Source of the DNA: Ignavibacteriales bacterium
Lineage (GTDB): Bacteria; Bacteroidota; Ignavibacteria; UBA10030
Assembly (NCBI GenBank): GCA_026390575.1
Contig: JAPLFR010000015.1
Span: forward strand, 1 to 64,000
DNA: 64,000 nt
Direction of reading: 5' to 3'
The position numbers were made by a program, and so were the translations under genes. The notes beneath the pieces were generated by a model that had not been told where the DNA came from, did no database searches, and saw only the letters and a program-made list of their open reading frames with translations. Shown here piece after piece: positions 4,212 through 25,838 of the stretch (position 1 is its first letter; every line of letters starts with the position of its first letter).

Positions 4212-4916
4212 AACAAATTCTTCAGATATTTTTAAAAGATCGTTAATGATATTTTTCAAAGACAGAGAACTTCTTTCGGCATCTTCGCCAAGAAAGAAAT
4301 CTTCATTGATAAAACCATGAACAGTACTTGTGTAAGCAGTCCCAACAACGATTACAAAGTTTTGCGCGTAAGTAATTAAATTATATGCATCTCTGAAACT
4401 TGTAGTCGGAGATCCAGAAATATCCATAAGCTCTCTATGGGCAATTCGTTTATCGCGTATTACCTTCAAGGCAAGAAGCGAATTAGAATTATCCAATGAA
4501 GGCATCGTTGATTGAAAGTGATCAACAATGATCCTATTTAGTTCTGCCGAAGTAATTGACCATGAATTATTGAGGAGAATTCCAAGGTTTGCCAAATGCT
4601 GACAAACCAGTGGGCGTTCGATTATTTCAAGATTATCAACATTTTCAGAAATTATTTGGAGAGTTGTTGGGACACTTATTACTTCATAGCGTTTGTCTAT
4701 CGGTTCAAATAGCTTGGTAATGTGAACTATGAGATGATCAGAAAGAATCATCTGGAGATTCTGAAAAAAGAGAACATATGGTGTTCCTTCTAATTGTTTA
4801 CCATACTTGCCGATTGACATTAAGAGCGAATACGACAACCGAGACATATAAATGTCTTGAACGATGCCCTTGTCTAAATAATAGACGAATTTCTCTTTTA
4901 GATTATCGAAATCCAT
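4206..4916 (-). CDS. Cassette gene: AbiU2-like HEPN protein
   Basis: This 236-residue helical protein contains IRDKRIAHREL around residues 153-163. Arg154 and His160 form an Rx5H HEPN catalytic signature, and the surrounding LKVIRDKRIAH block is the hallmark I associate with the AbiU2 HEPN family of abortive-infection proteins. FEPIDKR (residues 70-76) also fits that family. Likely role, by family knowledge: an RNA-targeting phage-exclusion or toxin component. It is the first cassette after the integron platform, the position usually best expressed. Its stop codon overlaps attC 6, so the gene fills its cassette completely. Confidence 0.75.
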   Translation of the reverse strand: MDFDNLKEKFVYYLDKGIVQDIYMSRLSYSLLMSIGKYGKQLEGTPYVLFFQNLQMILSDHLIVHITKLFEPIDKRYEVISVPTTLQIISENVDNLEIIERPLVCQHLANLGILLNNSWSITSAELNRIIVDHFQSTMPSLDNSNSLLALKVIRDKRIAHRELMDISGSPTTSFRDAYNLITYAQNFVIVVGTAYTSTVHGFINEDFFLGEDAERSSLSLKNIINDLLKISEEFVA

Positions 4917-4931
4917 ATTTATGAATTTGTT

Positions 4932-5000
4932 GCCTAACTACTGATTAGATAGACATTGTCTATGTTCCACGCTTATAAGCGTAAAATATAGATTCTTATT
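4932..5000 (-). other. attI-like integration site (platform end of array)
   Basis: GTTAGGC reads on the minus strand at 4938-4932, immediately before the first cassette, but without the long palindromic partner that attC sites have. A single core between the first cassette gene and the divergent integrase remnant is what an attI site looks like. The outer limit (about 5000) is a guess, because attI sequences outside the core are not conserved. Confidence 0.55.
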
Positions 5001-5045
5001 AAAACAAATTGTAACTTTTACCAATCGCTAATATAGGAGGCTACC

Positions 5046-5311
5046 CTGGCGACTAAACTTCTTGACCTAGTGCGGGAACTGCCCAACTTAAACACCTCAG
5101 CCCCCGTTCGGAAGATTCTTATGCTCAACGGATTAAACGCTTTGTTCTCTTCCATAACAAACGCCATCCTGTCGAAATGGGAGAAAAAGAAATTCGTAGC
5201 TACCCGATATACCTCACTTGCGATAAATATGTCTCTTCCTCTAATCAAAATCAAGTATCGAATGCAATAATATTTTATTTCTCACAAGTACTGCATAAAT
5301 CACTTGGGTAA
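5046..5311 (+). pseudogene. intI: Integron integrase (IntI) remnant, N-terminal fragment
   Basis: A strong AGGAGG at 5035-5040 precedes a CTG (5046) where an ATG is expected. The frame reads LATKLLDLVREL, then a one-base deletion near 5085 shifts it. The next frame, from 5087, reads LKHLSPRSEDSYAQRIKRF, LFHNKRHPVEMGEKEIRSY and SSSNQNQVSNAIIF to a TAA at 5309. These blocks align in order with the N-terminal core-binding domain of IntI tyrosine recombinases (LDQLR, LHYSLRTEQAY, RFHGVRHP, VSVSTHRQALAALLFFY in IntI1). The catalytic domain with the Arg-His-Arg-Tyr residues is absent. About one third of a normal ~320-residue IntI remains. Orientation is divergent from the cassettes, as in functional integrons. 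Confidence 0.85.
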
Positions 5312-5421
5312 TTTGGCGATATTCTGCCTCCGTTCTGCCGGAGTTGCGAAAAGGTTTTGAGATAGGATCTCATTATTTTTCTCTTTTTCCTTTTCACTTA
5401 ATATCTTATACTTGAGTTAGT

Positions 5422-6843
5422 ATGGGACCACTAAAAACAGATGTGATCGTTATTGGCGAAGGCATTACCGGACTTTGTCTTGCCTACTGGCTGAAGAAAC
5501 GCGGTATCAATGTTACGGTGCTTGCAAAAGATAGTGAAGTGGGCGGAACAATGAAGTCGGTGCAGGAGCAAGGTTTTTTGTATGAGACCGGCGCAAACAC
5601 CGCGCTCGAAACAACCCCTCTCTTCAAAGAACTTATCTCAGACTTGAGGTTGGAATCAGAATTCACTTACGCCAACCCGGAAGGCAAGAATCGTTATATC
5701 CTCCGCGATGGTATTTTACATTCGATGCCGCTGGGACCCGGTTCTTTTTTCTCAACCAAACTCTTTTCCACCGCTGCAAAATTTCGTGTCATGAAAGAAC
5801 CATTCATTGGACGCGCAGAGAAAGAGGAAAGTATCGCTGAGTTTGTTGAACGAAGATTAGGACGCGAATTTCTTGATTACGCCATCGATCCGTTCGTGGC
5901 AGGTGTTTTTGCCGGAAAGCCGGAACAGTTAAGCGTACGCTCCGCATTCCCTAAACTGTATGCGCTGGAAGAAAAGTACGGCGGATTGGTAAAAGGGATG
6001 ATCAAAGGCGCGCAGGAAAGAAAACAACGGGCAGAGAAAGCGAAAGACCGCGCTGAAACATTTTCCTTCGTCAGCGGGATGCAAACATTACCGCACGCTA
6101 TCGGCGATTCGCTTGGCAAGACGGTTCTTTTTAACGCAAAAGTTACCGGTATCCGCAACCTGACAACTGCACGCGAAGAGCCGTCGGATGAACCCGATGC
6201 GCGGCGTTACCTTGTTGAATACCTCCGCAACGGCAAAGAGGAAGAGATTGAAGCGGATGTCGTCGTGTTTGCTATTCCCGCCTACGACGCTGCGCCCATT
6301 ATCAAATCATTGTCGATGGAAACAGCACATGTGCTTTCCTCCATTTATTATTCCCCGATTATCTCTATATTCTTGGGTGTGAAGCGAGATGACATCGGGC
6401 ACACGCTGGATGGTTTTGGATTCCTTATTCCATCGAAGGAAAAACGAAAAATCCTCGGCTGTTTATGGAACTCATGCTTATTTGGAAATCGCGCACCCGC
6501 AGGATTAGTGGCACTCAATGCATTCGTTGGCGGCGCCCGTCAGCCGGAATTGACCGGGTTCAATGATGAACAAATTATTCAGATGACGCTTGATGAGCTC
6601 AAATCTATTATGCAATTTTCAGGAAAACCCGTATATTTAAACATAACACGCTGGCAAAAATCCATTCCGCAATACGAAATAGGATACCAGCAAAAAATGG
6701 ACTTGCTTGCCCAGTTTGAAGAAGCCAATCAGGGTATTTTGCTGGCTGGAAACTATCGCGGCGGCATTTCGGTTGGCGACTGTGTGAAAAATGCGTATGA
6801 GATTGCAGAGAGTATTTCCTCGCAGATACTCTCAACACGTTAG
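5422..6843 (+). CDS. hemY: Protoporphyrinogen oxidase, HemY type
   Basis: This 473-residue FAD enzyme is expected to oxidise protoporphyrinogen IX to protoporphyrin IX in heme synthesis. The N-terminal dinucleotide fold is clear (VIVIGEGITGL, residues 9-19), followed by the conserved GG(T)-type stretch EVGGTMKS. The DPFVAGVFAG block near residue 155 is typical of PPOX enzymes, as is the C-terminal FAD-binding stretch with LAGNYRGGISVGDCVKNAYE. Length fits HemY (450-480). The start ATG 5422 gives the motif at the usual position. It stands alone, but heme supply fits the cytochrome-rich region nearby. Confidence 0.9.
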   Translation: MGPLKTDVIVIGEGITGLCLAYWLKKRGINVTVLAKDSEVGGTMKSVQEQGFLYETGANTALETTPLFKELISDLRLESEFTYANPEGKNRYILRDGILHSMPLGPGSFFSTKLFSTAAKFRVMKEPFIGRAEKEESIAEFVERRLGREFLDYAIDPFVAGVFAGKPEQLSVRSAFPKLYALEEKYGGLVKGMIKGAQERKQRAEKAKDRAETFSFVSGMQTLPHAIGDSLGKTVLFNAKVTGIRNLTTAREEPSDEPDARRYLVEYLRNGKEEEIEADVVVFAIPAYDAAPIIKSLSMETAHVLSSIYYSPIISIFLGVKRDDIGHTLDGFGFLIPSKEKRKILGCLWNSCLFGNRAPAGLVALNAFVGGARQPELTGFNDEQIIQMTLDELKSIMQFSGKPVYLNITRWQKSIPQYEIGYQQKMDLLAQFEEANQGILLAGNYRGGISVGDCVKNAYEIAESISSQILSTR

Positions 6844-6877
6844 ACTTTATTTGATGTTCTCCTTGAAAGGATTTGCT

Positions 6878-7591
6878 ATGAAAAAGAATATCCCGCTTTT
6901 CGTTTTATTGTGCAGTTTTATAACAACCGCTGCGCTGCTGGCACAAGTACAGCAGGCAGTATATCAAGATGAAGATACCCCGTCTGAATCGTTCACCATC
7001 CTGCTGAAAGATGAGTGGGCGTACTTGAATGATGCCGTTACCCAGCTGAAAAATGAAACAGAAAAAAAAGGTGAATTTGAGACAACAAATGAATTTCAAG
7101 CTCGTGTAGCTCGTTCCCGCGATTTCCTTCAAAACAAACTGAATACACATCTCAAGGATACAAAGCTGGACCGCAGAGTGTTTGGTTTGTGGTTTAAAGC
7201 AGCGCTTATCTTATACAACGCTGACTCGGAAATATATTCTCTGAAATGTCCAACGATTATCGAAGCGCCGTACAGCGTTCCGACCGTGGATTGTCTTATT
7301 CCGTCTAATCAGTATGTTGATTTGGCGGACAGCATCCGGGGCGGTTATCGGACATCAAGTATCTTTTTGAAATTCAATCCGGATTTTGAATGGAAAGTCG
7401 GAAGAAACGAAGCACAATCAGCAAAAGGAAATGAATCCAATATATTTTTCAAAATTCATTTTGTTGTAAATTTGAGCCAGGAAGGATCAGCCATTCACGG
7501 GCAATTGAAAATAATTCCAAAAGATATTGCCTTGATAAATAAAAGCAATAATTACGTCTACTGGAAAACTGAGATACAAGAGAAGCAATGA
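6878..7591 (+). CDS. Exported protein of unknown function
   Basis: The frame is open from 6791, but I place the start at ATG 6878, preceded by GAAAGG at 6865-6870, because it gives a clean signal peptide (MKKNIPLFVLLCSFITTAALLAQ). The mature part is about 214 residues, rich in charged residues in its first half (TQLKNETEKKGEFETTNEF), then beta-like. Two cysteines occur in mid-protein (LKCP, VDCLIP). No family is recognised. It lies 34 bases after hemY and may be co-transcribed. Confidence 0.7.
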   Translation: MKKNIPLFVLLCSFITTAALLAQVQQAVYQDEDTPSESFTILLKDEWAYLNDAVTQLKNETEKKGEFETTNEFQARVARSRDFLQNKLNTHLKDTKLDRRVFGLWFKAALILYNADSEIYSLKCPTIIEAPYSVPTVDCLIPSNQYVDLADSIRGGYRTSSIFLKFNPDFEWKVGRNEAQSAKGNESNIFFKIHFVVNLSQEGSAIHGQLKIIPKDIALINKSNNYVYWKTEIQEKQ

Positions 7592-7684
7592 AGGTAGTTG
7601 TCGAGAACCCAGTGAGGCTGTCTAAAAAGTCCGGAGTTGTCATGCTGAACTCGTTTCAGCATCTGTCTTTTGTAAAAAATTAGA

Positions 7685-7703
7685 CCCCGAAACAAGTTCG
7701 GGG
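7685..7703. repeat. Intergenic inverted repeat between convergent genes
   Basis: CCCCGAA (7685-7691) and TTCGGGG (7697-7703) form a 7-bp stem with a 5-base loop in the gap between the plus-strand gene ending at 7591 and ccmF ending at 7767. Nearby GTCATGCTGAAC...TTCAGCATCTG (about 7638-7664) is a second hairpin. The pair looks like a dispersed intergenic repeat of the 'GTCAT...CGGGGTGACA' kind and may also terminate transcription. Confidence 0.5.
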
Positions 7704-7766
7704 TGACATTTTCTTTCTTTTTGGACAACCCCGTTGGGTTTCAAAAAGACACGTTACAAAATTTTC

Positions 7767-10016
7767 TTAAACAGTATTCTGCTTCAGTCGCCGCAGCATC
7801 GCAACCAACAATCCAAGGACGATGAGTACAGCAGCAATCCATACAAAACTCATAAATGGTTTTATACTTACCTCGGCAATGAGAATTTCCGGTTTTTGTT
7901 CCGAGCCATGAGCCATACTTTCCAGACCGACGACATTTATATGAACGGTTGATTTTCCCCCTTTTGTTGTGGCAACATTCATAGAAGCAAGTTGGAATCC
8001 TATCGTCCCGCTTTTGAGATAACCGGTCTTCATCTCAGGTTTTCCCCGTACACTAAATGTTGTCACTGGAATAATTGTCTGAATGTCTTTTTCTGTTTTG
8101 ACTTCCAGCATCGCACCAATAGTCATCGCATTGCTGGCGCCGCCCATCATACCGCTGCCAGTATGTGATCCTAGATCGAATTGCTTAAACGTAATCTGAA
8201 GAGGACCATACAGCACCGGTTCGCCTTTTGGAAGAACCAGTACGCTCTGCTCTGCCGCTTCACTGCCTTCCTCGATAGAGACTGGTTCAATATAGAAATC
8301 CTTTGTAAGATAACTGATATAATCCGGATTTCTCATCAAACTATTGTTGTAGGTACTTTCAAACATAACCGGTCGAAGAATCGTCGGCGTTCCATTCTGA
8401 ACCATTTTTACTTCGCATTTCATTTTTCCATCAGGTGTAGCCGAGGTTCCGATATATGTTAACGTGTCACCGAAAACTACTTGCGGTTGATTCAACGGAA
8501 GTACAACCGACTGTTTCTGTCCATAGCGCCCGGAAGCAATAATGCCAAGGAAAAGAATTGCTAAACCCACATGCGAAAGTGCACTGCCGATGAACCGAGG
8601 CTGTTCTTTTGCGATTCGATATCCCTGCCCGGCTGCAACGACGAGTGCAAAAAGAGATGTGAACGCTAACAATGCAGCAGATATGTCATGCAGTCCCAAG
8701 ACAACGAGTACTGCAAGCACAAGGACGGATAAAACTCCTGGCACAATAAGTTTCTTGAATAACTGTTGTTTGCCTTCTTGATTCCATTTTGTGAGGATAC
8801 TCAGACCGAGCAAGAACGTCATGAGAACAGCAAAGGGAAGATTCGTGCGGTCGTAGAAAGAAGGTTCAACCGTAGCGTTTGAGAAAAGCGGCTTGCTTGT
8901 TCCGAAAAGAATCACCGCCGCGCAAACTCCCATGACAATTGTCGCAATGGACAACAGCGATTCGCGTGAGAGCCAGGTACTGGGGAGTGTCTTGATGTTC
9001 AATTCTTTTCTGCGAAACACAATCATACCAAATCCACCGAGGGCAGCGGCGGCAAGCCATATCACAAGCAGCGTATAAGCAAGCGAACCGGGATCGACAA
9101 AAGAATGGACAGAAGCATTTGCTAAAATTCCACTGCGCGTCAGGAAAGTACTATAAATTACCAACAGGTATGTAAGTACGGCGAGAACAAAATTCGTCCT
9201 GACAAGTTTACCCGTGAGCATCTGGATCAGCATGGTATGGACAAGTATGACCGCGACGATCCACGGAATGAGTGAAGAATTTTCTACCGGATCCCATCCC
9301 CACCAGCCGCCCCAGCCGAGTACACCGTATGCCCAGTAACCGCCAAGCATAAGTCCGGCACCAAGTGAGAGCGCGCTAAACAACACCCATGGCAGCGCTG
9401 CATGCAGCCAGTCGCTGTATCTTTTTTGCCAGAGCGCTGTAATCGCCAATACAAATGGAATGGCAAGAGATGCAAAACCGAGAAAGAGTACCGGCGGATG
9501 AATGATCATCCAGAAATTCTGTAATAACGGATTTAATCCTCTACCATCCTGCGGAATAAAACCCTTTGGAACATCTTTCTGCACATCCCATATATATTGG
9601 AAAGGTGACTTAATGGCGATGAGAAGTAAAAGAAACGCCAGCACAAGCGAGTAAGTCGCCATAGCCGGTCTTTCCATATCTGTCCGCCGGGTGTAGGCTT
9701 GCAGGAATAAACCAATCACAGTGGCAAAGAGCGCCCAGAGTAAGAAACTGCCTTCCTGACCAGCCCAGAATGTTGTGATCAATAATGCTATCGGGAGATC
9801 GCGGGAACTATAGCTTGATACATAATGATATTCAAATCTATGTTGAAGGATATAAAGAAGTAGTATAGCGGAAACTGATGCGACGCCGATAACGGAGATG
9901 AAGAAGCTGCTGCGTGCCACCTGCAATAAATTTTGTTTTGAGAGTGAAAGATAGTAAAAACAGGCTGAGGTCAGCGATGCCGTAAAAGCGATCCAGAGGA
10001 CAGTTGTACCAATCAT
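7767..10016 (-). CDS. ccmF: Cytochrome c heme lyase subunit CcmF
   Basis: This 749-residue polytopic membrane protein belongs to the heme-handling family. The WWD motif WGGWWGWDPVENSS (residues 235-248) binds heme in the CcmF/CcsA superfamily, and IIHPPVLFLGF (171-181) is the usual preceding His-containing segment. A periplasmic C-terminal region of about 200 residues (QKSVVLPLNQPQVVFGDTL onward) and a final TM segment match CcmF. It would attach heme to apocytochromes. It directly follows the multiheme cytochrome genes, which would need it, though a terminator-like hairpin at 10115-10142 separates them. No other ccm genes are in the window. Confidence 0.92.
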   Translation of the reverse strand: MIGTTVLWIAFTASLTSACFYYLSLSKQNLLQVARSSFFISVIGVASVSAILLLYILQHRFEYHYVSSYSSRDLPIALLITTFWAGQEGSFLLWALFATVIGLFLQAYTRRTDMERPAMATYSLVLAFLLLLIAIKSPFQYIWDVQKDVPKGFIPQDGRGLNPLLQNFWMIIHPPVLFLGFASLAIPFVLAITALWQKRYSDWLHAALPWVLFSALSLGAGLMLGGYWAYGVLGWGGWWGWDPVENSSLIPWIVAVILVHTMLIQMLTGKLVRTNFVLAVLTYLLVIYSTFLTRSGILANASVHSFVDPGSLAYTLLVIWLAAAALGGFGMIVFRRKELNIKTLPSTWLSRESLLSIATIVMGVCAAVILFGTSKPLFSNATVEPSFYDRTNLPFAVLMTFLLGLSILTKWNQEGKQQLFKKLIVPGVLSVLVLAVLVVLGLHDISAALLAFTSLFALVVAAGQGYRIAKEQPRFIGSALSHVGLAILFLGIIASGRYGQKQSVVLPLNQPQVVFGDTLTYIGTSATPDGKMKCEVKMVQNGTPTILRPVMFESTYNNSLMRNPDYISYLTKDFYIEPVSIEEGSEAAEQSVLVLPKGEPVLYGPLQITFKQFDLGSHTGSGMMGGASNAMTIGAMLEVKTEKDIQTIIPVTTFSVRGKPEMKTGYLKSGTIGFQLASMNVATTKGGKSTVHINVVGLESMAHGSEQKPEILIAEVSIKPFMSFVWIAAVLIVLGLLVAMLRRLKQNTV

Positions 10017-10114
10017 GCGAGCTTTCCTTTAAAAAATGAATAATGCGCTTCTGACATAGAACACCGAGGTACGCTTGAAGGGTTCCAAGAACAACGTATA
10101 ACCCGTATAAAACA

Positions 10115-10142
10115 CGTGTGCGGGAAGTAACTCCCGCACACG
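10115..10142 (-). terminator. Terminator-like hairpin after the 6-heme cytochrome gene
   Basis: CGTGTGCGGGA (10115-10125) pairs perfectly with TCCCGCACACG (10132-10142), loop 6 bases. On the minus strand it is followed by TGTTTTAT. It separates the cytochrome gene from ccmF. Confidence 0.65.
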
Positions 10143-10174
10143 GCTTGATACAAAAATATAAACCCAAAATAAGA

Positions 10175-11347
10175 TTACGGCTTGTTCAGCTCTGCAATCG
10201 ATGCATCAAGCATGCTCGCGGCATAGTCCGGATTGTGAATTCCATGACTTCCGTCATGCAGCAGCATCATATAATTGAAGAGTGCTCCACTGCGGGATGC
10301 TGGAACGATCTTTAAATTAGAAGAAGAAGTTCCCAAGATTACATCGTTCGCGTCAATCCACCCTCTTGCAACTAACTGCGCTTTCAACGTCGCCATTTTT
10401 GTGTTGAACTGTGTAATCCTGCTGTTGTAATCAAGCTTTGTGATTGACGAGTGGCAGTTCTTACAGCCGTTCACCATCTCAACTGCAGTTGTTGAACCTT
10501 CTGGAACATATGTAATTTTCATTGTATGTCCGCCAATATGATCACCGTACGCGTTTGCCGGTAAATAATCAGCCATATGACATACCGTGCAGCCATCAGT
10601 GGTGATAGGTGCCATCGTGCTGTGCGCGGACGTTTTGCTATAGGTTGTAGCATCGGTCCATTGGAACGCACCGACACCTGTAAGAATTTGACCCTGTACA
10701 CCATAGTGAGCATACCAACGATTCGAAGTGATTTTCAATGTGTCTGTTGTTGCGGTCTTTGTAGGATCGGGGAGAGGACTCAATGTTCGTGGACGGTGAC
10801 ATCCAACGCACAAATCTCCTTTTCCAAGGCTGAACGTAGAAGCAGGGACGCCGGTAATATTGGAATTTAAAGTATGTTGAGCTGTTGAGGTTACGCGCAG
10901 CGAAAAATCTCCCTTCGAATGCGGTGAGTGGCACGCAAAACAGCCCGGAGGCGTAGCATTTGGAAGGTCGGTTAAGGTCAATCCTTTAGCCTTCAACATG
11001 AATCCTTCTGTCGTATGGCATTCTGCACAACCAGAACGGTTTTCTTCCGATGCAGTTCCGGCGCCATGTTTCGATTCTTCCCATTGACGTGCACGGGCGG
11101 CAATATAATATGTTGTATCTGTTTCAGGATTATGGCAAGAGGCGCATCTCAAACTGTCTTTGAATCCATCAAAATAAACAAAACCAGCATTCAGACCATT
11201 ATTACCATTAGTGCCGTTTGTTCCCGCATCACCTTTATCACCTTGCGGCCCGGTTGGGCCTTCCGGTCCTTTACAGCCCGAGAGACTTGCAATTACGAAG
11301 AGACTTACCAAACCGATAGCAAGACTCCAGAGTATTTTTTTCATCAT
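10175..11347 (-). CDS. Hexaheme c-type cytochrome lipoprotein with collagen-like stretch
   Basis: This 390-residue protein has a lipoprotein signal peptide (lipobox LSGC, Cys25). It is followed at once by nine Gly-X-Y triplets (residues 27-53, GPEGPTGPQGDKGDAG...). Six CXXCH heme sites follow: CASCH, CAECH, CFACH, CVGCH, CTVCH, CKNCH. Several extra histidines could serve as distal ligands. The Gly-X-Y run may form a short collagen-like spacer or trimerising stalk lifting the heme domain off the membrane. Placed with a porin and other cytochromes, it is a candidate cell-surface electron carrier; surface exposure is inferred. Confidence 0.88.
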   Translation of the reverse strand: MMKKILWSLAIGLVSLFVIASLSGCKGPEGPTGPQGDKGDAGTNGTNGNNGLNAGFVYFDGFKDSLRCASCHNPETDTTYYIAARARQWEESKHGAGTASEENRSGCAECHTTEGFMLKAKGLTLTDLPNATPPGCFACHSPHSKGDFSLRVTSTAQHTLNSNITGVPASTFSLGKGDLCVGCHRPRTLSPLPDPTKTATTDTLKITSNRWYAHYGVQGQILTGVGAFQWTDATTYSKTSAHSTMAPITTDGCTVCHMADYLPANAYGDHIGGHTMKITYVPEGSTTAVEMVNGCKNCHSSITKLDYNSRITQFNTKMATLKAQLVARGWIDANDVILGTSSSNLKIVPASRSGALFNYMMLLHDGSHGIHNPDYAASMLDASIAELNKP

Positions 11348-11440
11348 AAATCACCTTTATATTACAGGTTTGTAATTAGTTGTTTAATGGTATTTTAATT
11401 GATAGCCCGATGTTGATAATTGTTTCCTTTTTGTTCCTCG

Positions 11441-12271
11441 TTAATTGAATTCAATTTGTCCATCTATGTGTTTCGAAAGAGTAAGCTTATAATTGGCGTC
11501 AATAACATGCGGATGACAGTTTACACAGCGAGTATCATTCGGGTGAGTGCCGCCATTGAGCGATGTCTTCGGCAATGCTTTATCACCAATTGTGGATTTT
11601 GTTACGTCTCCATGGCAAGAGCCGCACGCGCTTGCCTGACCTGAAACATCATTCCACACGACCGACTGCTTATTACCATTTGAAAAATTTCCATGACAGT
11701 ATGTATTAGTACAAGTCAATGTTGATTGTGAAAAACTTTGCCCTGCAGCGTAACGCGGCGTAACCAGGAACATTACTTCTGCCCCGGCTGTGCTATCAAT
11801 ATGTCCAGCCGCAGAAAGCGACGCAGGCACTATATGACATTCATTGCAGGCGATCGGTGTTGCAATAGAATCTGTACCAAGGAGATGGGATTGATGAACT
11901 CCAACGCCAGGAGAAGAAGATGAAGTATTGCCCGCGAGATCTTTTGGTGGAGCAGCATTAACACCACCATGGCACACGGTGCAATTTTCTGGTCCACCCG
12001 GCTTGTTATGACATGTGAAACACGATGAACCGGAACTTCCGCCTCGATAATCCGGGCCATGGCATTCTTTGCAGCTGTTCATACTCCATCCAGCACTTTG
12101 AATTGCAAGTCCATGAAAATTAGCTGATGCCGTGTCCTTCCATCCCTGGCCATGAATTTGCGGCCCTGCGGTTGTTTCGGTTGGCAAATCTTTCTTCAAA
12201 TCACTGCATGAGAGTGCGAGAAACGCGAGTGACAGAATCGTAAGAATGAGAGCTTGTTGTTGTTTCTTCAT
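11441..12271 (-). CDS. Heptaheme c-type cytochrome lipoprotein (CxxxxCH type)
   Basis: I start at ATG 12271 (MKKQQQALILT); the frame also has an ATG at 12286 whose TGGATGGA sequence looks like the ribosome-binding site for the later ATG. The signal ends in LALSC, a lipobox. Six CXXCH sites (CKECH, CFTCH, CTVCH, CNECH, CGSCH, CVNCH) and one CX4CH (CTNTYCH) make seven candidate hemes. The CxxxxCH family with this mixture is known from Geobacter-like metal reducers. The gene follows the 14-heme cytochrome by 15 bases and is probably in the same operon as the porin. Confidence 0.88.
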   Translation of the reverse strand: MKKQQQALILTILSLAFLALSCSDLKKDLPTETTAGPQIHGQGWKDTASANFHGLAIQSAGWSMNSCKECHGPDYRGGSSGSSCFTCHNKPGGPENCTVCHGGVNAAPPKDLAGNTSSSSPGVGVHQSHLLGTDSIATPIACNECHIVPASLSAAGHIDSTAGAEVMFLVTPRYAAGQSFSQSTLTCTNTYCHGNFSNGNKQSVVWNDVSGQASACGSCHGDVTKSTIGDKALPKTSLNGGTHPNDTRCVNCHPHVIDANYKLTLSKHIDGQIEFN

Positions 12272-12286
12272 ATTCAATCCATCCAA

Positions 12287-13519
12287 TTAACGGTGGCAGT
12301 AGCCGCAGAATTTTTGTCCCTTCACACCACCCGGACGCGCATTGACATCGGTATGGCAGGTATAGCACGTTGCTCCCGGGTCTGTATGCCAATTCCCATG
12401 AGTGTCCGACATGAATCCTTGATCGTGTGTCTTGGGATCGGTACCTTTGATTCCATCAACATCTGTATGACATGTTATACAAATTGGATCCGCACCTTCA
12501 ATGCTGTGGCACGCTGCGCAAGATTCGATATCACGCTTCGCCTGCCGTGCATGCTCACCTCCGCCGGTTCCAACACCCAATGTCGTAAACCCTGCAACGG
12601 AATGCGATGTCGGTTTGAATTCTCCTTGATTTACATTCCCGCCTGCTTTATGGCATTCGGAACAGAATTGTTCTGCGCTGTGGCATGTCTGGCATTCCAT
12701 CGCTTTGCCCTTTGCAGAAATGCCATGGGTGAATTTAAAATTCAGATCATGAACCTTTGTCAATCGCATGCCCTGTCCGCGGTCAATCGCCATGAGTCGG
12801 GGTGAGTGAAGCGACATGAGATCTTTACCCGGCACATCCACTTTCATCAATTCGCTTCCATTGTGGCAGTCGATACAGGTTTCCTGCGTATGACAGGCGC
12901 CGCATTTTGCATCGCCAAGTCTTGCGGAAAACTTATGTTCACGCACGAAGTTGGTTCGATTATGTTCTGCGGGCCGGAGAGCGGCTAAATTTGTGTGGCA
13001 TGTTTCGCACGTGCCTGTTGCTTTCACATCATTATGACATGTTGCGCACGTCGCCATAGCCGGAACGAGTTCTCCTGTGCCGGCATCTGCTTTATCAAGA
13101 ACGGTGTGGCATGTTTCGCAAGCTGTCTTTTGTTCTTCTACATGTTTTTGATGTGAAAAGATTAATTCTCTTACCGGGTTTGGCGTTGCTGTATATGTTG
13201 TTGAATCGGCGCTGACATGGCAATACGTACAATTATTGCTTACCTGTTCGTGACAACTTTTGCATACTTCCATTTTGGCAAGCAGGTTGTCCGAAGCTTT
13301 TACGCTTGCAGCCGCTTCACTATGGCAATCCGCACAAGCAGCACCGTTTTCTTTATGGAGCTGGTGCGAAAATTTGATCCGTTTTGGTTGTTTATCGATA
13401 CCGGTTGCTTCGCGTGACGTCAGAACAACAGTGAAAGCAATCAGCAGCATCAGCACTAAACTGAATAACGGGTACCTGTGTTTTCTCAGGAGTAACGATT
13501 TAATTTTTATTGTTGGCAT
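12287..13519 (-). CDS. Fourteen-heme c-type cytochrome
   Basis: This 410-residue protein has an N-terminal hydrophobic segment at about residues 17-35 that is a signal peptide or membrane anchor. It carries 14 CXXCH sites, about one per 29 residues, many paired with nearby HxxH-type histidines (FSHQLHKENG, FSHQKHVEEQ). This density is typical of decaheme-like electron wires. The gene starts 7 bases after the porin gene, so both are almost surely co-transcribed. By analogy with porin-cytochrome complexes it is the best candidate for the heme chain inserted in the barrel or sitting on its periplasmic side. Confidence 0.9.
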   Translation of the reverse strand: MPTIKIKSLLLRKHRYPLFSLVLMLLIAFTVVLTSREATGIDKQPKRIKFSHQLHKENGAACADCHSEAAASVKASDNLLAKMEVCKSCHEQVSNNCTYCHVSADSTTYTATPNPVRELIFSHQKHVEEQKTACETCHTVLDKADAGTGELVPAMATCATCHNDVKATGTCETCHTNLAALRPAEHNRTNFVREHKFSARLGDAKCGACHTQETCIDCHNGSELMKVDVPGKDLMSLHSPRLMAIDRGQGMRLTKVHDLNFKFTHGISAKGKAMECQTCHSAEQFCSECHKAGGNVNQGEFKPTSHSVAGFTTLGVGTGGGEHARQAKRDIESCAACHSIEGADPICITCHTDVDGIKGTDPKTHDQGFMSDTHGNWHTDPGATCYTCHTDVNARPGGVKGQKFCGYCHR

Positions 13520-13526
13520 GATGATC

Positions 13527-14834
13527 TCAGAAAATATTCAAACGTTCACTCAAGTAATAGCTGCCCCGGAAAAAGAGGCGCGTATCGTTGCTGTATACTT
13601 TATTTTGAATCCATTGCAGCTGCAGATCAAGCGACAAAGCGGACAACGGACGGTAGACAGCCCCGAGCGCAGCGCTTAAGGCATTTGCTGTCGGTGCATT
13701 GCTGTCTAATTTATAATGCGCATAGCTTATCATTACTGTCGGTGTTAATTTGTTATTCAATATTGGATAGCCTGCATTTGCAGAAACCGCTGCCAACTCA
13801 CCGCCATAGCCGGTATTCCAGCTGAAACTGGCTGAGGCGTATTTCGTACTGCCGCCGAGCGTGATACGGTTTGAATTCTCATCGCCGTACGAAACCGCTC
13901 CAAACTTTCCAAATACTTGCCAATCTTTGCAGATGGCGTATTCTGCGCCAAGTTCATATTCACTGATCGTGTTGTATGCGAACACCCAAAAGATGGAATT
14001 GTATGAGAGACGCGGCTCTCGGTGAATATATTCGCCAGTGAACGAGAGCGGCTCCATGACCTTGACACGAGTGAAAAGTTGAATCCTTGATAACTTTTCG
14101 AGATTGAGATCAACGTCACCGCGCGCATACGCAGACACTCTGCTATAGTCAACACTCACATCACCGCTCACATATTGTTCTGAAGAAGCAGTGGGATTGA
14201 TCTCGGTCAGGATTGGATTCAAGAGTGAGTCTCTGCGGAGCGCCCAATATAATTCAGGCTTGATATTCTTTGCCATATAGCTCAAAGACAAACGAGCAAA
14301 GTCAACCGGTGTGCCAACCACTTGGGCTCCGTACATATTGTTATTCTTTTGGTCCTTGATCATCTCAAATTGATGTCCCGGTTCCGGAAGTGCGCCGTAA
14401 TAACCGAGCACCTTGACCTTTGAATCCAATAAGCGTACGGATGCAACACCGCCATCGATCGTGCCGTTACCGACACCGGCAAAGACCGCTTGTCTGCCAA
14501 GACTCAGATCAGCAATGTCGTAGAGATTAGAATACTTTAAATAAAAATTATAGAACCTGAAGGCACCACGATCATTTAAAGGACCAGCAAAATCCTGGGA
14601 CCCCTGCATGTACGTGTGAAACGAGAGATGTTCACCTGCAAGCGAGAGTTGCACAGTTTGATATCCAAGCAGATGGTTGGATGATTTGCCTACTGAATCC
14701 TGCCGCTGCCAAGCATTGGCGGACGAGACAAGTCTCATCTGAAACAGTTGAGCGAATGCTTCACTTTGTACAATGAAAGACAGAAAAAGCATTGTCAAGG
14801 GTATCAGAAAACAATATCGTATTGAACGTTTCAT
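13527..14834 (-). CDS. Outer-membrane beta-barrel protein, putative porin of a porin-cytochrome conduit
   Basis: This 435-residue protein has a signal peptide (MKRSIRYCFLIPLTMLFLSFIVQSEAFA). A long series of alternating polar/hydrophobic strands follows, such as SLGRQAVFAGVGNGTIDGG. It ends in Phe (YLSERLNIF), the usual C-terminal signal for barrel insertion. About 18-22 strands are plausible from length. It lies 7 bases upstream of the 14-heme gene and two cytochrome lipoprotein genes follow. This is the gene content, though not a recognised sequence, of porin-cytochrome conduits that move electrons across the outer membrane. Confidence 0.8.
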   Translation of the reverse strand: MKRSIRYCFLIPLTMLFLSFIVQSEAFAQLFQMRLVSSANAWQRQDSVGKSSNHLLGYQTVQLSLAGEHLSFHTYMQGSQDFAGPLNDRGAFRFYNFYLKYSNLYDIADLSLGRQAVFAGVGNGTIDGGVASVRLLDSKVKVLGYYGALPEPGHQFEMIKDQKNNNMYGAQVVGTPVDFARLSLSYMAKNIKPELYWALRRDSLLNPILTEINPTASSEQYVSGDVSVDYSRVSAYARGDVDLNLEKLSRIQLFTRVKVMEPLSFTGEYIHREPRLSYNSIFWVFAYNTISEYELGAEYAICKDWQVFGKFGAVSYGDENSNRITLGGSTKYASASFSWNTGYGGELAAVSANAGYPILNNKLTPTVMISYAHYKLDSNAPTANALSAALGAVYRPLSALSLDLQLQWIQNKVYSNDTRLFFRGSYYLSERLNIF

Positions 14835-14939: not shown

Positions 14940-15455
14940 TTATCCTTTTGGAATCGGGTGCTTAATTTTTGCCCACATTTCTTCAAGTTTAAACCCTTTG
15001 TGAGTTGGGCTTTTCTCATTGTGGCATGTCTTGCACTTCTTTTCAATAGCACCCTTGTCTTTGAAATCTGTTAATCCGGCAGCAATTGCTTTTGCCTGGT
15101 CTTTCATGATGGGCATGGTTTTGTATGCCGATCCTGCACCGTGGCATAATTCGCATTGCACTCCATCGGCGGTAAGCTTTGCATCAGCTGTAATGGCATG
15201 GCACTCGAGGCATTCGGGTGATTCGTTTGCCGCTTTCTTCAAACCCTTCGCTTTCGCAATTTCAGCCGATTTAGCATTCGAAAGTGTTTTGTATGCTTCC
15301 GCATGTTTACTCTTTTGCCATATGTCAAATTGTTTGCCCTGTTTGTCGGATTGATGACACATCTTACACATCTTTGCACCGACGTATTTGTTTTGAGCAT
15401 TTAATATAAAAGGAACGACAAGAAAAATGATTAACAACAACTTTATTGCTTTCAT
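14940..15455 (-). CDS. Tetraheme periplasmic cytochrome c (c554-like)
   Basis: This 171-residue protein has a signal peptide (MKAIKLLLIIFLVVPFILNAQ). Four CXXCH sites follow: CKMCH, CLECH, CELCH and CKTCH. The opening YVGAKMCKMCHQSDKQG followed by WQKSKHAEAYKTL matches the cytochrome c554/NrfB-like 'KxCxxCH...W..S.HA.A...L' pattern. A soluble shuttle between inner-membrane quinol-oxidising complexes and the outer-membrane conduit is the natural reading. It sits between the two gene groups and has 410 bases of its own upstream sequence. Confidence 0.88.
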   Translation of the reverse strand: MKAIKLLLIIFLVVPFILNAQNKYVGAKMCKMCHQSDKQGKQFDIWQKSKHAEAYKTLSNAKSAEIAKAKGLKKAANESPECLECHAITADAKLTADGVQCELCHGAGSAYKTMPIMKDQAKAIAAGLTDFKDKGAIEKKCKTCHNEKSPTHKGFKLEEMWAKIKHPIPKG

Positions 15456-15865: not shown

Positions 15866-17332
15866 CTAATTCTTATTTTGTTTTTTTTCCAGACGCCTCA
15901 CGTAGAGGTACAGTGATATTGCAAGTAAAGTAATAATTAATGTTGAAATCACCAGCCCAAATCTACGAAAATAATATTCTTGGATTGCTGCTGTAGCTTC
16001 TTCTGCAATCACACTAGATACTTTTATTCCATTATCTACAATTTCCCGGAATTTTCCTTCGTTAAAAGCATGCACCATTGTCCGCGACTGTAACCGTGCT
16101 TGTCGTACATCCCGAAGTTTGAATTTCGCTTCGCTGATCTCCATTCCTTTTTGCTCAGCTTCGTCCACCAGGCTCCGAACCCGCTGTTCCTGCGCTTCCA
16201 GACTGTCTATCGATCCGCGCATATTCTTCGCAGCCTGATACCCTTTGACGTTTAGATGTTCACCGTGGCATCGGCTGCATACTGCGTCTCGTGTTACCCC
16301 TAATAATTTATCGGTAGCGGCAATAATTTCATGATTGCCATGACAAGTTTCGCATTCAGGAAGCTTGCGGTCATCGAAAGCTTTTTTATGCGGGCTTGAA
16401 GAAAAAAGATCAGCGTTCAATGCGTGGCAAGTTCCGCACACTTTTGAGATTGATTCTACTCCCGGCGGCATAGCACCGTGATTTCCATGGCAGCTGTTGC
16501 AAGCTGGGGCGCCTTGATCATGCTTTTGGAGCAACGCAACACCGTGAACACTCTTTGCATACTTCTCGTATTGATCTGTCGGAATTTTGTACGGCTTCAT
16601 ATAATCAACATTGCTGTGGCATGCTGCACATGTTCCAGGCAGATTTGAAGCATACACTTTTGATTTCACATCTTTTGCTGATCGGATGTCATGACTCCCG
16701 TGACAATTTGCACACGCGGCTGTCTTTGCATCTCCTTTCGCGTTACGTTTTCCGTGAATACTCGTACGGTATTTTTCTAATTGATCAACGGGAAGTGATG
16801 GATTGTAGGATCGCATTAACGCAATGTCGGCATGGCAACGGGTGCAGGTTTTAACGACATTCAAAGGATACACCGGAGAAGATGGATTTTTCACTGATAC
16901 AATTCCGTGCGCGTTATGACAGGTGATGCATTGTACAATGTGCTCTTTTCCTTTTAATGAAAGTTTCGCATGTACACTTGTTTGCAGAAATTCCCATTGA
17001 TTTGTCGGCAGGGATGAACCAAACGATTTCATCTTTTCAAGAGAAGAATGACAGGCCGCACAAGCTTTGGAAATATCATCACCTTTCGGTATCCCATGAA
17101 AACCCGCTTTCTTATCCATTGCTTGTTCCATGTCTTCACTCTTGGCATTACCGCCATGGCATCCAGCACAGGTGATTCCTTTTTGGTAATGAACATCATG
17201 CTTAAACAATTCTGACGGCTTATCTCCCGCCGTGAGATGACATTCTAAACATTGGTCTTTGGCACATGCAGATTCGAGAGGAAAAAGTACAGCAACAATG
17301 GCGGCGGCAATAATAAGAATGTACTGTTTCAT
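15866..17332 (-). CDS. Eleven-heme membrane-anchored cytochrome c
   Basis: I start at ATG 17332, which overlaps the cytochrome b stop as ATGA, rather than at the longer open frame. This gives a 488-residue protein with a proper signal peptide ([24 protein letters not shown]). Eleven CXXCH sites follow in repeated units of the pattern 'CxxCHxxHGI...Y..N...TCxxCH'. A helical stretch (about 385-440) and a C-terminal TM anchor ([19 protein letters not shown]) close the protein. It takes the place that cytochrome c1 or f holds in bc complexes: last gene after Rieske and cytochrome b. It is therefore the likely electron acceptor of this quinol oxidase complex. Confidence 0.9.
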
Positions 17333-18402
17333 GCAAGCCACCCGATAATAGTGAAGAGAATGATATACATCACGGCAAACAACCCAAGATAGTTCACAAA
17401 TCGATTCTGCTCGCCCCGCGAACTCTTGTAATCCCAAAAAGGCACCACAGTCCATAAGATGCCTGCAATGCTAAACAGAAGAATTCCTAACACCTCACCA
17501 TCTAAAAACCATAACCTGCCGGGAATATATTTCAATGTCTGAAACATAAAAAGGAAATACCATTCAGGTTTAATACCAGCAGGAGCAGGTGCAAATGCTT
17601 CGGCTTTCTTTCCTAATTCCCAGGGAAAGAATACTGCAAGAATTGCGAGAAGATTCAGCACAAGAAGCCACAGAGTCAGATCACGTAAAATAAAATTGGG
17701 GAAGAACGGCATTGACTTGCGCTCAGATTCTGCTTTGATATGCAGCGGCTCGCTCATCCCTTGTCGCTGCACAAGAAGAAGATGAATACCGAGAAAAATT
17801 GTGAAAAGCCCGGGCAGTACCGCCACATGGAAACCAAAAAATCGAGAAAGAGTTGCACCGGTTACTTCATCTCCACCGCGGAGGAAAGTCAACAATGGTT
17901 TACCTATGACCGGCACGACACCGGCGATGTCGGTGCCAACCTTTGTAGCAAAGAAGGCAAGTTCATTCCATGGCAAAAGATATCCGCTGAATCCGAATCC
18001 TAATAAGAGAAAAAACATAAGCATTCCGGTGACCCACGTAATCTCGCGCGGTTTCCGATATGCTTTTTCAAAATAGACGCTGAACATATGGATCATTGCC
18101 GAAAGAATAAAGAGATTTGCCGTCCAGCTATGGACAGAACGAATGAGCCAGCCGAATTGAACTTTCGACATAATAAAATTAATACTCTCGAAAGCAAGCT
18201 CTTCCCCGCTCTTATAATAGAGAAGCAGGAGAATCCCCGTCACAACTTGAATAATAAAGAGAAAGAGAGAAACGCCTCCAAAGTAATACCACACAGAATG
18301 ACGATGCACGGGAACATATTTTTTTCCCATGTAATTAACCAAACCCTCGAGCTCAACACGCTCGTCAATCCAGTTATAGATTCGTTTCAGAAATGATTTC
18401 AT
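17329..18402 (-). CDS. Cytochrome b of a bc-type quinol:acceptor complex
   Basis: This 357-residue protein combines the b6-like four-helix part and the subunit IV-like part. Heme ligands are His91/His105 and His192/His207. The 13- and 14-residue gaps match the b6f type rather than mitochondrial bc1. The quinol-site motif reads PEWYF. It overlaps both neighbours by 4 bases (Rieske upstream, 11-heme cytochrome downstream), so the three form one translation-coupled unit in the inner membrane. Expected role: bifurcated oxidation of menaquinol, passing electrons to Rieske and on to a multiheme c-type subunit. Confidence 0.93.
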
Positions 18403-18854
18403 ACTTTTTTTGAAATTAGAATATCGTCACCCTGAACCACAACCCGGAGTTCATCAAGAGGACGCGGCGGTGGACCAGAGATGTTTCTGCCATGTAAATC
18501 ATATTTACCATTATGACATGCGCACCAGATCGTGCCATAATCTTTCCGGTATTGCACCGTGCAGTCGAGATGTGTACATGTTGCGGAGAAGGCACGCAAA
18601 TCGCCATCGGTGGTTCGAATTAAAATTACCGGCTTCGTGCCAAACTTAATAATTTTTCCGCTGTCTTTTTCAATTTCGCTCAACTTTCCCGCTTTGACAC
18701 TCGACACTTCAACTTCTGCCTGTCTTGGCGGGATGAGATATTCAAGGATCGGATACAGAACCGCACCAAGAAACGCAATCACTCCGCCGGAAAGAATAAT
18801 CTTGAGGAAATCTCTTTTCGTTTGTTGCTCTGGAATCTCAGGTTGTTGATTCAT
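18399..18854 (-). CDS. Rieske iron-sulfur protein
   Basis: This 151-residue protein has one N-terminal TM segment (residues 18-40, preceded by TKRDFLK, a Tat-like start with KR rather than RR). The [2Fe-2S] ligand boxes are CTHLDC (93-98) and CACHNG (111-116), then the GPPPRPL loop. Length and boxes match the b6f/menaquinol-type Rieske family. It is the high-potential acceptor of the bc complex encoded by the next two genes. Confidence 0.94.
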
Positions 18855-18868
18855 GAAAAAATATCTCT

Positions 18869-20362
18869 CTATTGAGCATTATGACAATCACTGCAATTCA
18901 TTTCTTTCCAGGCGTTTCCAATATCGACCGGATGTCGGTATTCAACACCGCTTAACGACAAACGCAATCCTTCCTTCTCGAATTGCTGGGCAAGGATTGT
19001 ATGGCAAACATTGCAATCCCGTGACAGAACTTTTCCGTCGCCAGAAACATGCTTTCCGTCATGACAGCGAAAACAGCCGGGATAGTACATGTGCCCTATA
19101 TTATCCGGAAATTTTTTCCAACTTACATGCATTTCAGGAAAATAGTTACGGCTAAATATCTTTTGAACTTCCGATATAACTTTCGCGATTGTGTCTTGTT
19201 TCGTTTTGGCAAGTTCCGGATAATTCATCTGATAATATCCTTCGATTGCCAGTTGTATGCTGTCAAGTCCGATCTGTTTTGTGGAATATGAATTCTCGAG
19301 TGCTTTTAGAGAAACGCTCTTCACATTAGGAAGGTTTGGATCAATCCAGCCCAATGACATCACATGATTGATCGACCTTGCAGGCGGATGATAAATATGT
19401 GTAGGACGGTTATGACAATCTATGCAATCCATCCGGCGAGTTTTCATTGTGCGAATCTGCTCATCTGTCAAAGAGTTTTCTGTACTTTGATAGACAACAA
19501 CTTTTCCTTCCGGGTTTTTTGACCGTATCCAAGGAATGCTTTGACGCTGTGAATCCGTTGCGATATACGTCAACTCGTTTGCAATGTTCATGTGCCAATG
19601 GATTCCGGATGTTGGACCTGCTTCGATATTCCCGCCGCCAATCTTGATAAGGAGATCCAGCATCCAGCGTGTATTTTTTTCATCGGAGAGGAAGTACGTA
19701 TTCTTCAGCATTTTCTCACTGAAAAAATGCTTAGGCCAATGACACTGTTCGCATGTCTCTTGAGCAGGACGCAGGTTCTCAATCGGTGTCGGTATTGGTT
19801 TGGGATACTTATTGAAAAGCGTTGCATACACTTGATACGCCCCGGAAAGCTTCGCCCGCACGAACCAGCCGGCCCCCGGTCCGATATGACACTTAACACA
19901 TCCAACACGGGCGTGCGGTGAAAATTCGTACGCAGTGTATTCCGGACTCATGACTGTATGACACATCGTGCCGCAGAATTTATCGGAATCCGTATACTCG
20001 TACGCTTTGAAACTGCCAAAAGCAGAAAAGATTAAGAGCATCAACCCGCCAAGTGAAATCCAGAAGAATGCATTTCTCTGCCGTGGATCGTTCAAGTCGA
20101 TGCGGGGCAGTTTCAACTCATGCGGCAGCCCCCTTTTTTCACGGCGATGCTCGCGCCATGTACCATAAAACACCAGTCCCAGCCCAAAGAGAATAAAAAT
20201 CGGCAAAATAATAAAAGTAAGTATTCCTACATACGGTTTCTGCTCTCCTGCGAAAAGATCGAGAACGGTGAGGAAAAGCACTAGTCCGAAGCTGACCGAT
20301 GCAATTGCAGCACCGATCAATGTTCGCATATTGTAAAAAGCTGGCGGAAAGAAACGTTTCAT
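18869..20362 (-). CDS. NapC/NirT-type heptaheme cytochrome, membrane quinol dehydrogenase
   Basis: This 497-residue protein has three N-terminal hydrophobic segments (about 12-35, 43-67, 98-118). A NapC/NirT domain follows with an unusual CX3CH first heme (FCGTMCHTVMSPEYTAY) and CVKCH, CEQCH, CIDCH. A C-terminal extension adds CFRCH, CNVCH and CSDCH, giving seven heme sites. The EYTAYEFSPHARVGCVKCH block is the conserved core of these proteins. NapC/NirT proteins oxidise menaquinol and pass electrons to periplasmic partners. Together with the bc complex in the same operon it would give a second quinol exit. Confidence 0.9.
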   Translation of the reverse strand: MKRFFPPAFYNMRTLIGAAIASVSFGLVLFLTVLDLFAGEQKPYVGILTFIILPIFILFGLGLVFYGTWREHRREKRGLPHELKLPRIDLNDPRQRNAFFWISLGGLMLLIFSAFGSFKAYEYTDSDKFCGTMCHTVMSPEYTAYEFSPHARVGCVKCHIGPGAGWFVRAKLSGAYQVYATLFNKYPKPIPTPIENLRPAQETCEQCHWPKHFFSEKMLKNTYFLSDEKNTRWMLDLLIKIGGGNIEAGPTSGIHWHMNIANELTYIATDSQRQSIPWIRSKNPEGKVVVYQSTENSLTDEQIRTMKTRRMDCIDCHNRPTHIYHPPARSINHVMSLGWIDPNLPNVKSVSLKALENSYSTKQIGLDSIQLAIEGYYQMNYPELAKTKQDTIAKVISEVQKIFSRNYFPEMHVSWKKFPDNIGHMYYPGCFRCHDGKHVSGDGKVLSRDCNVCHTILAQQFEKEGLRLSLSGVEYRHPVDIGNAWKEMNCSDCHNAQ

Positions 20363-20392: not shown

Positions 20393-21247
20393 TTACTGAT
20401 ACGCGAAGACCATTGCATAAATGATCAAGATGACCATGCTGGCACCGATCGACAATGCTGTCCAACCAAATATACGAATAACCCGCACAACAATTTCAGG
20501 GTATGGTTCTACCAAATGTTTTTCGAGATCACCGTTTTTCACCATGGCCTCATATTCGAGTGGTTTATCTTCTTTGAGTTCTTCAAGCGTCATGCGTCCT
20601 GTAAATACAACAAGATCCATTGGAAATTTCTCAGGACGGAAGTGAGTGTTGAAAAAATGCACCGTAAAAATAAATCCGGTAGCAAGCAATGCCTCATCAC
20701 TATGAATGATCGTTGCTACATTGATGAGCCACCCCGGAAGCAATAACGTAAAGAATTCGGGAAACCACAGCATCAAGCCTGTTGAACCGATAACAATCAT
20801 TCCCCAGAACACGGCAAAGTAATCGAACTTCTCCCAGTATGTCCATCGGCCATAATCGGGACGTGGTCCCTTGCCGATGAACCATTTGAAATTTCCAATG
20901 AGATCCTGCAAGTCTTTTTTATTGAAGACCATAGAATCCGAACCCAACAACATTGCACGCCATGTTCCATACTCGCGCCGTTTACGCCGAATCAGGTCGA
21001 TGATGTGAGTGACAAACAAGAAGATCATCGTTCCAGCGGCAACCCGATGAATATATCCCGCGGATTCAAATCCGCCAAAGAGATGAGAAAGGAATACAGC
21101 CCAAGAGGTATAGGCAAATTTCAGTGTCATCCCTGTCGATGCCAGGCTTAAGAAACAAACGATCATGACAACATGCAGCAGCCGATTCAATCGTGTGAAC
21201 CGCTGATATTGTTTCTCGGTGCTATTTTCTGCAACTGATTCCATCAC
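20393..21247 (-). CDS. Membrane cytochrome b, FdnI/HydC-like
   Basis: This 284-residue protein has four to five TM segments with histidines spaced as in the diheme formate dehydrogenase gamma/Ni-Fe hydrogenase cytochrome b family. These include LNRLLHVVMIVCF, GYIHRVAAGTMIFLFVTHIID and a C-terminal HSDEALLATGFIFTVHFFNTHFRP. Its start overlaps the stop of the 19-heme gene by 4 bases, so the two are likely partner subunits. Together they repeat, as two polypeptides, the architecture fused in the neighbouring 742-residue-class protein. Confidence 0.88.
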   Translation of the reverse strand: MMESVAENSTEKQYQRFTRLNRLLHVVMIVCFLSLASTGMTLKFAYTSWAVFLSHLFGGFESAGYIHRVAAGTMIFLFVTHIIDLIRRKRREYGTWRAMLLGSDSMVFNKKDLQDLIGNFKWFIGKGPRPDYGRWTYWEKFDYFAVFWGMIVIGSTGLMLWFPEFFTLLLPGWLINVATIIHSDEALLATGFIFTVHFFNTHFRPEKFPMDLVVFTGRMTLEELKEDKPLEYEAMVKNGDLEKHLVEPYPEIVVRVIRIFGWTALSIGASMVILIIYAMVFAYQ

Positions 21248-25476: not shown

Positions 25477-25838
25477 TGCATAAATTGGAATGTATTTTTT
25501 TTGGACAATATGTATACTCACGTTCTTATTGTATACTTAAGGTGAGAATTTATATGCAAAAAATAAAACTTTATTGATTAAGTATCTCATTCAATTGCCT
25601 TGCTTTACAGCATCCATCAGAATGCAAAACACTTAATAATTGGCAATGTTTGTACCAAGAATCAGATTGCAACTGTATGATAATTCAGCGTAAATCACGC
25701 ATTTTTGTAGATAAATTCATCATAGATATCTTGAGAATTGGAATTTCTTGCTAAAAACAGGAATGTAAGCGGATGAACCCAGACAGCACCCACATCAAGG
25801 AAGGAACCTGAAGTTTAATTCAGTCTATACTTTAATTC
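25477..25838. other. Intergenic region upstream of the cytochrome operon
   Basis: This gap lies between the CoA-transferase stop and the CbcL-like gene. It holds a promoter candidate (25530-25559) and otherwise A/T-rich sequence with no frame or hairpin of note. Confidence 0.5.
25530..25559 (-). promoter_or_regulatory. Sigma-70-like promoter of the seven-gene cytochrome operon
   Basis: On the minus strand TTGCAT (25559-25554) and TATACA (25535-25530) are separated by 18 bases. Transcription would start near 25523, giving a leader of about 45 bases before ATG 25476. That spacing is the main reason to prefer this start over GTG 25521. Confidence 0.4.

Follow-up and report, generated by a model that had tools for sequence, protein, structure and literature searches.

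A probable Pcc-type porin and multiheme cytochrome gene set with neighbouring candidate quinol oxidases in an Ignavibacteriales genome

Gene content of the locus

The window analysed here is a 64,000 bp stretch of DNA, part of the 3.82-Mb genome, in 16 contigs, of an uncultured Ignavibacteriales bacterium whose nearest named relatives are Ignavibacteriae MAGs. It contains the following block of genes, all on the minus strand.

7767–10016 (−): CcmF/NrfE-type heme lyase (PF01578, 7.7e-28; TIGR03145, 3e-73, and TIGR00353, 1.6e-69, both below cut-off)
10175–11347 (−): 6-heme lipoprotein, 390 aa, proposed second surface cytochrome (6 CXXCH, LSGC, collagen-like GPxGPxG run)
11441–12271 (−): multiheme protein with a lipoprotein-like start, 276 aa, proposed surface terminal reductase (6 CXXCH and 1 CX4CH)
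12287–13519 (−): 14-heme c-type cytochrome, 410 aa, proposed wire inside or under the barrel (14 CXXCH)
13527–14834 (−): outer-membrane beta-barrel (Pcc-type porin), 435 aa (hydrophobic signal-like start, ends ...RLNIF)
14940–15455 (−): tetraheme c554-type cytochrome (PF13435, 1.7e-14; counterpart of IALB_1840 by position only)
15866–17332 (−): 11-heme cytochrome with a C-terminal membrane anchor, probably the third subunit of a bc-type complex (heme motifs, TM)
17329–18402 (−): cytochrome b/b6 subunit (PF00033, 2.6e-50)
18399–18854 (−): Rieske iron-sulfur subunit (PF00355, 1.4e-13)
18869–20362 (−): ImcH-like quinol oxidase (3 TM segments, CX3CH, 6 CXXCH)
20393–21247 (−): membrane protein with 4 TM segments, proposed b-type cytochrome (family assigned by eye)
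21244–23283 (−): 19-CXXCH cytochrome with a C-terminal TM segment (motif count, TM)
23296–25521 (−): CbcL-like protein (13 CXXCH and a C-terminal b-type cytochrome domain, PF01292, b561-type)

The preliminary description of this DNA, which covered 11441–14834, reported a beta-barrel gene with a C-terminal Phe followed after seven bases by a 14-heme cytochrome gene, and both points are confirmed: the 435-residue product ends in Phe, and the two genes lie on the same strand (−) exactly 7 bp apart. The 14 CXXCH motifs of the cytochrome far exceed chance, as shuffling its residues 1000 times gives a mean of 0.12 and a maximum of 2. The 7- and 6-heme lipoproteins that were placed downstream are also present as genes, the second (10175–11347) lying outside the interval named at first. 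The first begins at an ATG, with a listed TTG 15 bp upstream of it; the ‘7-heme’ label is right only if its CX4CH motif carries heme, and its ALSC is not a strict lipobox.

A strict lipobox is present in 14 of 57 first-lipoprotein sequences (window included, which fails), and a cysteine behind a hydrophobic run in 56 of the 57; from this lipoprotein-like start the protein is predicted to reside in the outer membrane. The CX4CH motif is found in all 56 of its best homologues. The residues after the cysteine are kept as [GASN]C[STARK][DEKQRNS][LT][KRQEN] in 45 of the 56 homologues, typically CSDLK or CSELK, and are possibly a surface-export signal. In the second lipoprotein the collagen-like run lies right behind the lipid cysteine, a Gly-rich run occurs in 18 of 20 homologous ORFs, and the run perhaps acts as a stalk.

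From 25521 to 15866 the genes are nearly contiguous. Two gaps would leave room for separate promoters, one of 410 bp ahead of the tetraheme gene and one of 105 bp ahead of the barrel gene. The product of 18869–20362 has the features of ImcH (three TM segments, an atypical CX3CH motif, a number of CX2CH motifs within the range of five to nine, and a NapC/NirT-like part), an assignment by features rather than sequence alignment. That of 23296–25521 resembles the CbcL/MtrH/MtoC proteins in joining a multiheme part at the N-terminus to a b-type cytochrome with TM segments at the C-terminus (PF01292 at residues 514–692), although a hydropathy scan gives five TM segments besides the signal and CbcL has six.

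Several other genes lie in the window. At the end of the block, an amine-oxidase-family FAD protein (5422–6843, +; PF01593), perhaps a protoporphyrinogen oxidase, is divergent from the CcmF gene. A pair of ORFs that overlap in different frames (37518–39221 and 39136–40089, −) has no Pfam match and by eye resembles a single outer-membrane protein gene broken by a frameshift; it adjoins a FecR-domain gene (40232–41938) and a CHASE2-adenylate cyclase gene (35183–37423). A [FeFe]-hydrogenase large-subunit protein is encoded at 47851–49677 (−; PF02906, 4.8e-100).

The barrel and the 14-heme protein

The barrel family is unnamed in Pfam and NCBIfam. The window barrel has no Pfam match at E≤1, and its sole NCBIfam match, to SurE (E 0.0062), is attributed to chance. 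Comparison of 38 family members with both collections gave nothing convincing and no match to a Pcc family; weak matches were to OMP_b-brl (8 of 38, best 3.7e-5), Porin_4 (5 of 38, best 5.2e-4), LptD (4 of 38, best 5.2e-4) and FilD (1 of 38, 6.4e-5). Sequence and profile searches of the PDB found no convincing relative, the two profile matches (E 0.48 and 0.55) being judged chance, and a plasmid search with the barrel gave no match. The earlier statement that the barrel is not MtrB is supported at the sequence level: PF11854 (MtrB/PioB) matches neither the window barrel, nor 37 relatives, nor any protein of the window's own genome, and no MtrB chain came up among PDB sequences at E≤10. An Mtr conduit alongside this one is unsupported, the MtrB family not having been found in that genome.

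The C-terminal Phe is not a fixed feature of the family: 21 of the 40 barrels end in it, a count that takes in the window and one broken gene. In two relatives the barrel gene is broken, by a frame change in L046 and an in-frame stop in L072, which may reflect assembly error or decay.

A script with hand-set, unvalidated scales predicts 18–28 strands across thresholds and 22 at the middle one, with outer loops longer than inner turns (mean 9.5 versus 2.9, p 0.006, a difference partly favoured by the set minima). For 22 strands the lumen calculated by formula is about 28–32 Å, and a lumen of this width suffices for c7-type domains. AlphaFold models of the barrel and the 14-heme protein, built from 5-row alignments, are too poor for measuring pore or wire: the barrel model has a pLDDT of 41.8 and no strands at residues 273–344, and the 14-heme model a pLDDT of 32.2.

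The best PDB match of a 14-heme profile is 3ov0 (‘Cytochrome c family protein’, 318 residues; E 1e-35), which we take to be the Geobacter dodecaheme GSU1996, and the c7 triheme PpcA is also matched; the profile match is shared with these proteins, whereas length and gene context differ. TIGR03508 (MtrA/DmsE decaheme) scores 26.3 bits against a cut-off of 192.2. Twelve-heme variants occur without the C-terminal part that carries the last two motifs. By eye there is no clear cleavage site at the hydrophobic N-terminal stretch, so the 14-heme protein might stay in the inner membrane.

Occurrence and gene order in relatives

A search with the barrel protein matched 76 of 100 genomes, and within the class a barrel profile matched 187 of 294, usually once per genome (own genome included in both counts). 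The 14-heme profile at E≤1e-60 matched 180 of the 294, and the two sets are nested: 180 genomes have both, seven the barrel only and none the 14-heme protein only. In a sample of the phylum 58 of 395 genomes matched, 57 within the class (own included) and one outside. The latter (locus L119, genome G430, from another class of the phylum and locally 66% GC) has a similar gene order at 4738–11821, judged from heme counts and order rather than BLAST per gene, with genes for a tetraheme, a barrel, a 12-heme, an 8-heme lipoprotein-like and a 19-heme protein and a 310-aa membrane protein in a row. A 3.67-Mb genome of the class itself (locally 34% GC) has in a row genes for a tetraheme protein, a 421-aa barrel, a 400-aa protein with 14 hemes, and a protein with 6 CXXCH and CX4CH, a foursome like the one described for Ignavibacterium album.

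Fifty-seven loci, all chosen for having the barrel, were compared: 40 from the window's family and order plus one, and 17 from other class members. A 14-heme-type homologue (11–14 CXXCH) directly follows the barrel in every one, and a lipoprotein homologue detected by BLAST lies downstream in 56 (40 of 40 and 16 of 17); in the sole exception, L098, only 18 bases of contig extend beyond the 14-heme match. A tetraheme homologue precedes the barrel at 29 of the 40 and 13 of the 17 loci. For the first set, further upstream neighbours were counted at loci with at least 9 kb of upstream sequence (n=34), and are ImcH-like (24), Rieske (19), cytochrome b (20), 11-heme (20), CbcL-like (19) and 19-heme (11); in the second (n=13) the upstream counts are two, one, one, one, five and two, respectively. 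A CcmF gene follows downstream at 22 of 35 first-set and 0 of 11 second-set loci. These counts make the barrel, 14-heme and lipoprotein genes a class-wide core, whereas the oxidase block is common near the window's order and not in the rest of the class. The block (CbcL-like, ImcH-like, Rieske/cytochrome b and CcmF), in line with the conduit genes in many relatives, is the less expected feature of the locus.

Divergence of the barrel follows that of the 14-heme protein. Among 17 loci with six proteins (window included), the barrel and 14-heme distance matrices correlate at r=0.964, the top of 15 pairs, with species history uncorrected and the pairs not independent; on the same uncorrected basis the barrel correlates with the ImcH-like protein at 0.860, the tetraheme protein at 0.845 and the lipoprotein at 0.244. 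Across 55 loci the values are 0.803 for barrel and 14-heme protein versus 0.453 for barrel and lipoprotein, again uncorrected for species history.

A probable outward conduit and its known counterparts

The 7-bp spacing of the barrel and 14-heme genes, the conserved order, the nested occurrence and the co-divergence at r=0.964, together with the 3ov0 match at 1e-35, the corresponding gene set of Ignavibacterium album, the upstream ImcH and CbcL features and the similar order outside the class, lead us to conclude that these genes very probably build a Pcc-type electron conduit leading outward through the outer membrane. Conserved order, nested occurrence and matched divergence give good support to the arrangement proposed in the preliminary description, a barrel with an inner heme wire and surface cytochromes. 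From genes, motifs, order and co-occurrence we infer where the proteins reside, that the 14-heme protein inserts into the barrel and which way the electrons flow. Inner-membrane quinol would be oxidised by the ImcH-like protein, the CbcL-like protein or the Rieske/b/11-heme module, and electrons would pass to the tetraheme cytochrome and on to the 14-heme protein, which, held in the barrel, would take them across the outer membrane and hand them to the surface lipoprotein cytochromes, either one or both. The presumed acceptor outside could be a mineral, humic matter, an electrode or a partner cell. Counting against the conduit are the poor models, the 18–28 strand spread, the failed strict lipobox, the possibly uncleaved 14-heme N-terminus and the uncorrected correlations, as well as the reported inability of I. 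album to use Fe(III) or Mn(IV) oxides (PMC4245776, in the parts available).

The same components could run inward, with the wire feeding the quinone pool with electrons taken from a cathode or from Fe(II) outside the cell. CbcL/MtrH/MtoC-type proteins also occur in Fe(II) oxidisers according to the available part of PMC6295460, but ImcH homologues are found there only in Fe(III) reducers, and an in-line ImcH-like gene precedes the barrel at 24 of 34 first-set loci, though at only 2 of 13 of the second; we consider this direction unlikely.

A second alternative is that a cytochrome operon happens to carry a barrel of another function, either a common porin for solutes or ions or an AlgE/Wzi-type exporter. 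The nearest structures to the low-confidence barrel model (Foldseek, VIA-align) are indeed ordinary solute porins and exporters (MOMP at Z 17.0, AlgE, a sucrose porin and OprD-type porins), with BamA, FhaC and CirA ranked lower; such porins and exporters have 16–18 strands, and the resemblance, if the model is followed, would mean a narrow pore and count against the conduit. That MtrB is not among the best 50 matches listed by either program is taken as uninformative. The weak Porin_4 and OMP_b-brl matches (in 5 and 8 of the 38 members, best 5.2e-4 and 3.7e-5) point the same way as the model, but the window barrel itself lacks a Pfam match at E≤1, the 14-heme gene was not found without the barrel in the 294 genomes and adjoins it at all 57 loci, and the two proteins diverge together, which makes a solute porin quite improbable. 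Instead of sheathing a wire, the barrel could also export the cytochrome lipoproteins or give them a platform at the surface, as the downstream lipoprotein homologue at 56 of 57 loci and the post-cysteine pattern in 45 of 56 homologues (a potential export signal) might suggest, but its divergence tracks the 14-heme protein and not the lipoprotein (0.964 versus 0.244; 0.803 versus 0.453), and we regard this as the least probable of the three.

The conduit had also been described as a candidate new one, which is not supported: a gene set of this make-up was reported from I. album JCM 16511 in 2014. In the available parts of that study (Shi et al. 2014, PMC4245776), IALB_1839 is a Pcc porin, IALB_1838, at 400 aa and 14 hemes, the largest of the Pcc periplasmic cytochromes, IALB_1837 an outer-membrane cytochrome whose heme motif is atypical and IALB_1840 an associated periplasmic cytochrome; IALB_1839 and IALB_1838 fall outside its five groups. 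OmbB-like or pcc porins are also reported from further Ignavibacteria and Melioribacter roseus in the portions seen of PMC7399161 and PMC6137239 and, if of the same family as the window barrel, would speak against its supposed unlikeness to the Geobacter porins. Within the literature searched, IALB_1837–1840 are named only by Shi et al. and we found no description of a combined oxidase-conduit block in Ignavibacteria; ‘Ignavibacter’ is absent from the main text, as far as available, of a 2025 Nature paper on sulfide-driven iron reduction (PMC12545173). A Pcc set reported as an outlier from one Ignavibacterium strain has counterparts in 187 of 294 class genomes. Near the window's order, candidate quinol oxidases are frequently encoded alongside it, which makes whole-pathway transfer or deletion experiments feasible.

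With Shewanella MtrCAB and PioAB the window genes share in principle a barrel around a heme wire, but those wires have 10 hemes rather than 14 and the window barrel does not match PF11854. The triad of porin, periplasmic and outer-membrane cytochrome is common to Geobacter OmbB-OmaB-OmcB, where these cytochromes have 8 and 12 hemes (PMC4245776, in the parts available) as against 14 and 6–7 in the window. In the Pcc clusters of Shi et al., as far as their text was available, a porin-like gene (18–22 predicted strands) lies beside a periplasmic multiheme cytochrome gene (5–14 hemes), most clusters have an outer-membrane multiheme cytochrome, often with an atypical motif, and porin and periplasmic cytochrome co-diverge while the outer-membrane cytochrome does not. 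The window likewise has a porin gene adjacent to a multiheme cytochrome that is presumably periplasmic, a multiheme cytochrome with an atypical motif that its lipoprotein-like start would place in the outer membrane, and, with species history uncorrected, the same pattern of co-divergence in its family. Compared by description rather than sequence, the I. album genes IALB_1840–1837 and the window core are of the same kinds and, by locus number, in the same order; unlike the I. album set as described there, the window block also encodes a further surface lipoprotein, CcmF and oxidases of the inner membrane. On present evidence the window set belongs to the known Pcc kind, in the ignavibacterial lineage and with an extended gene block, and is not a new kind of conduit.
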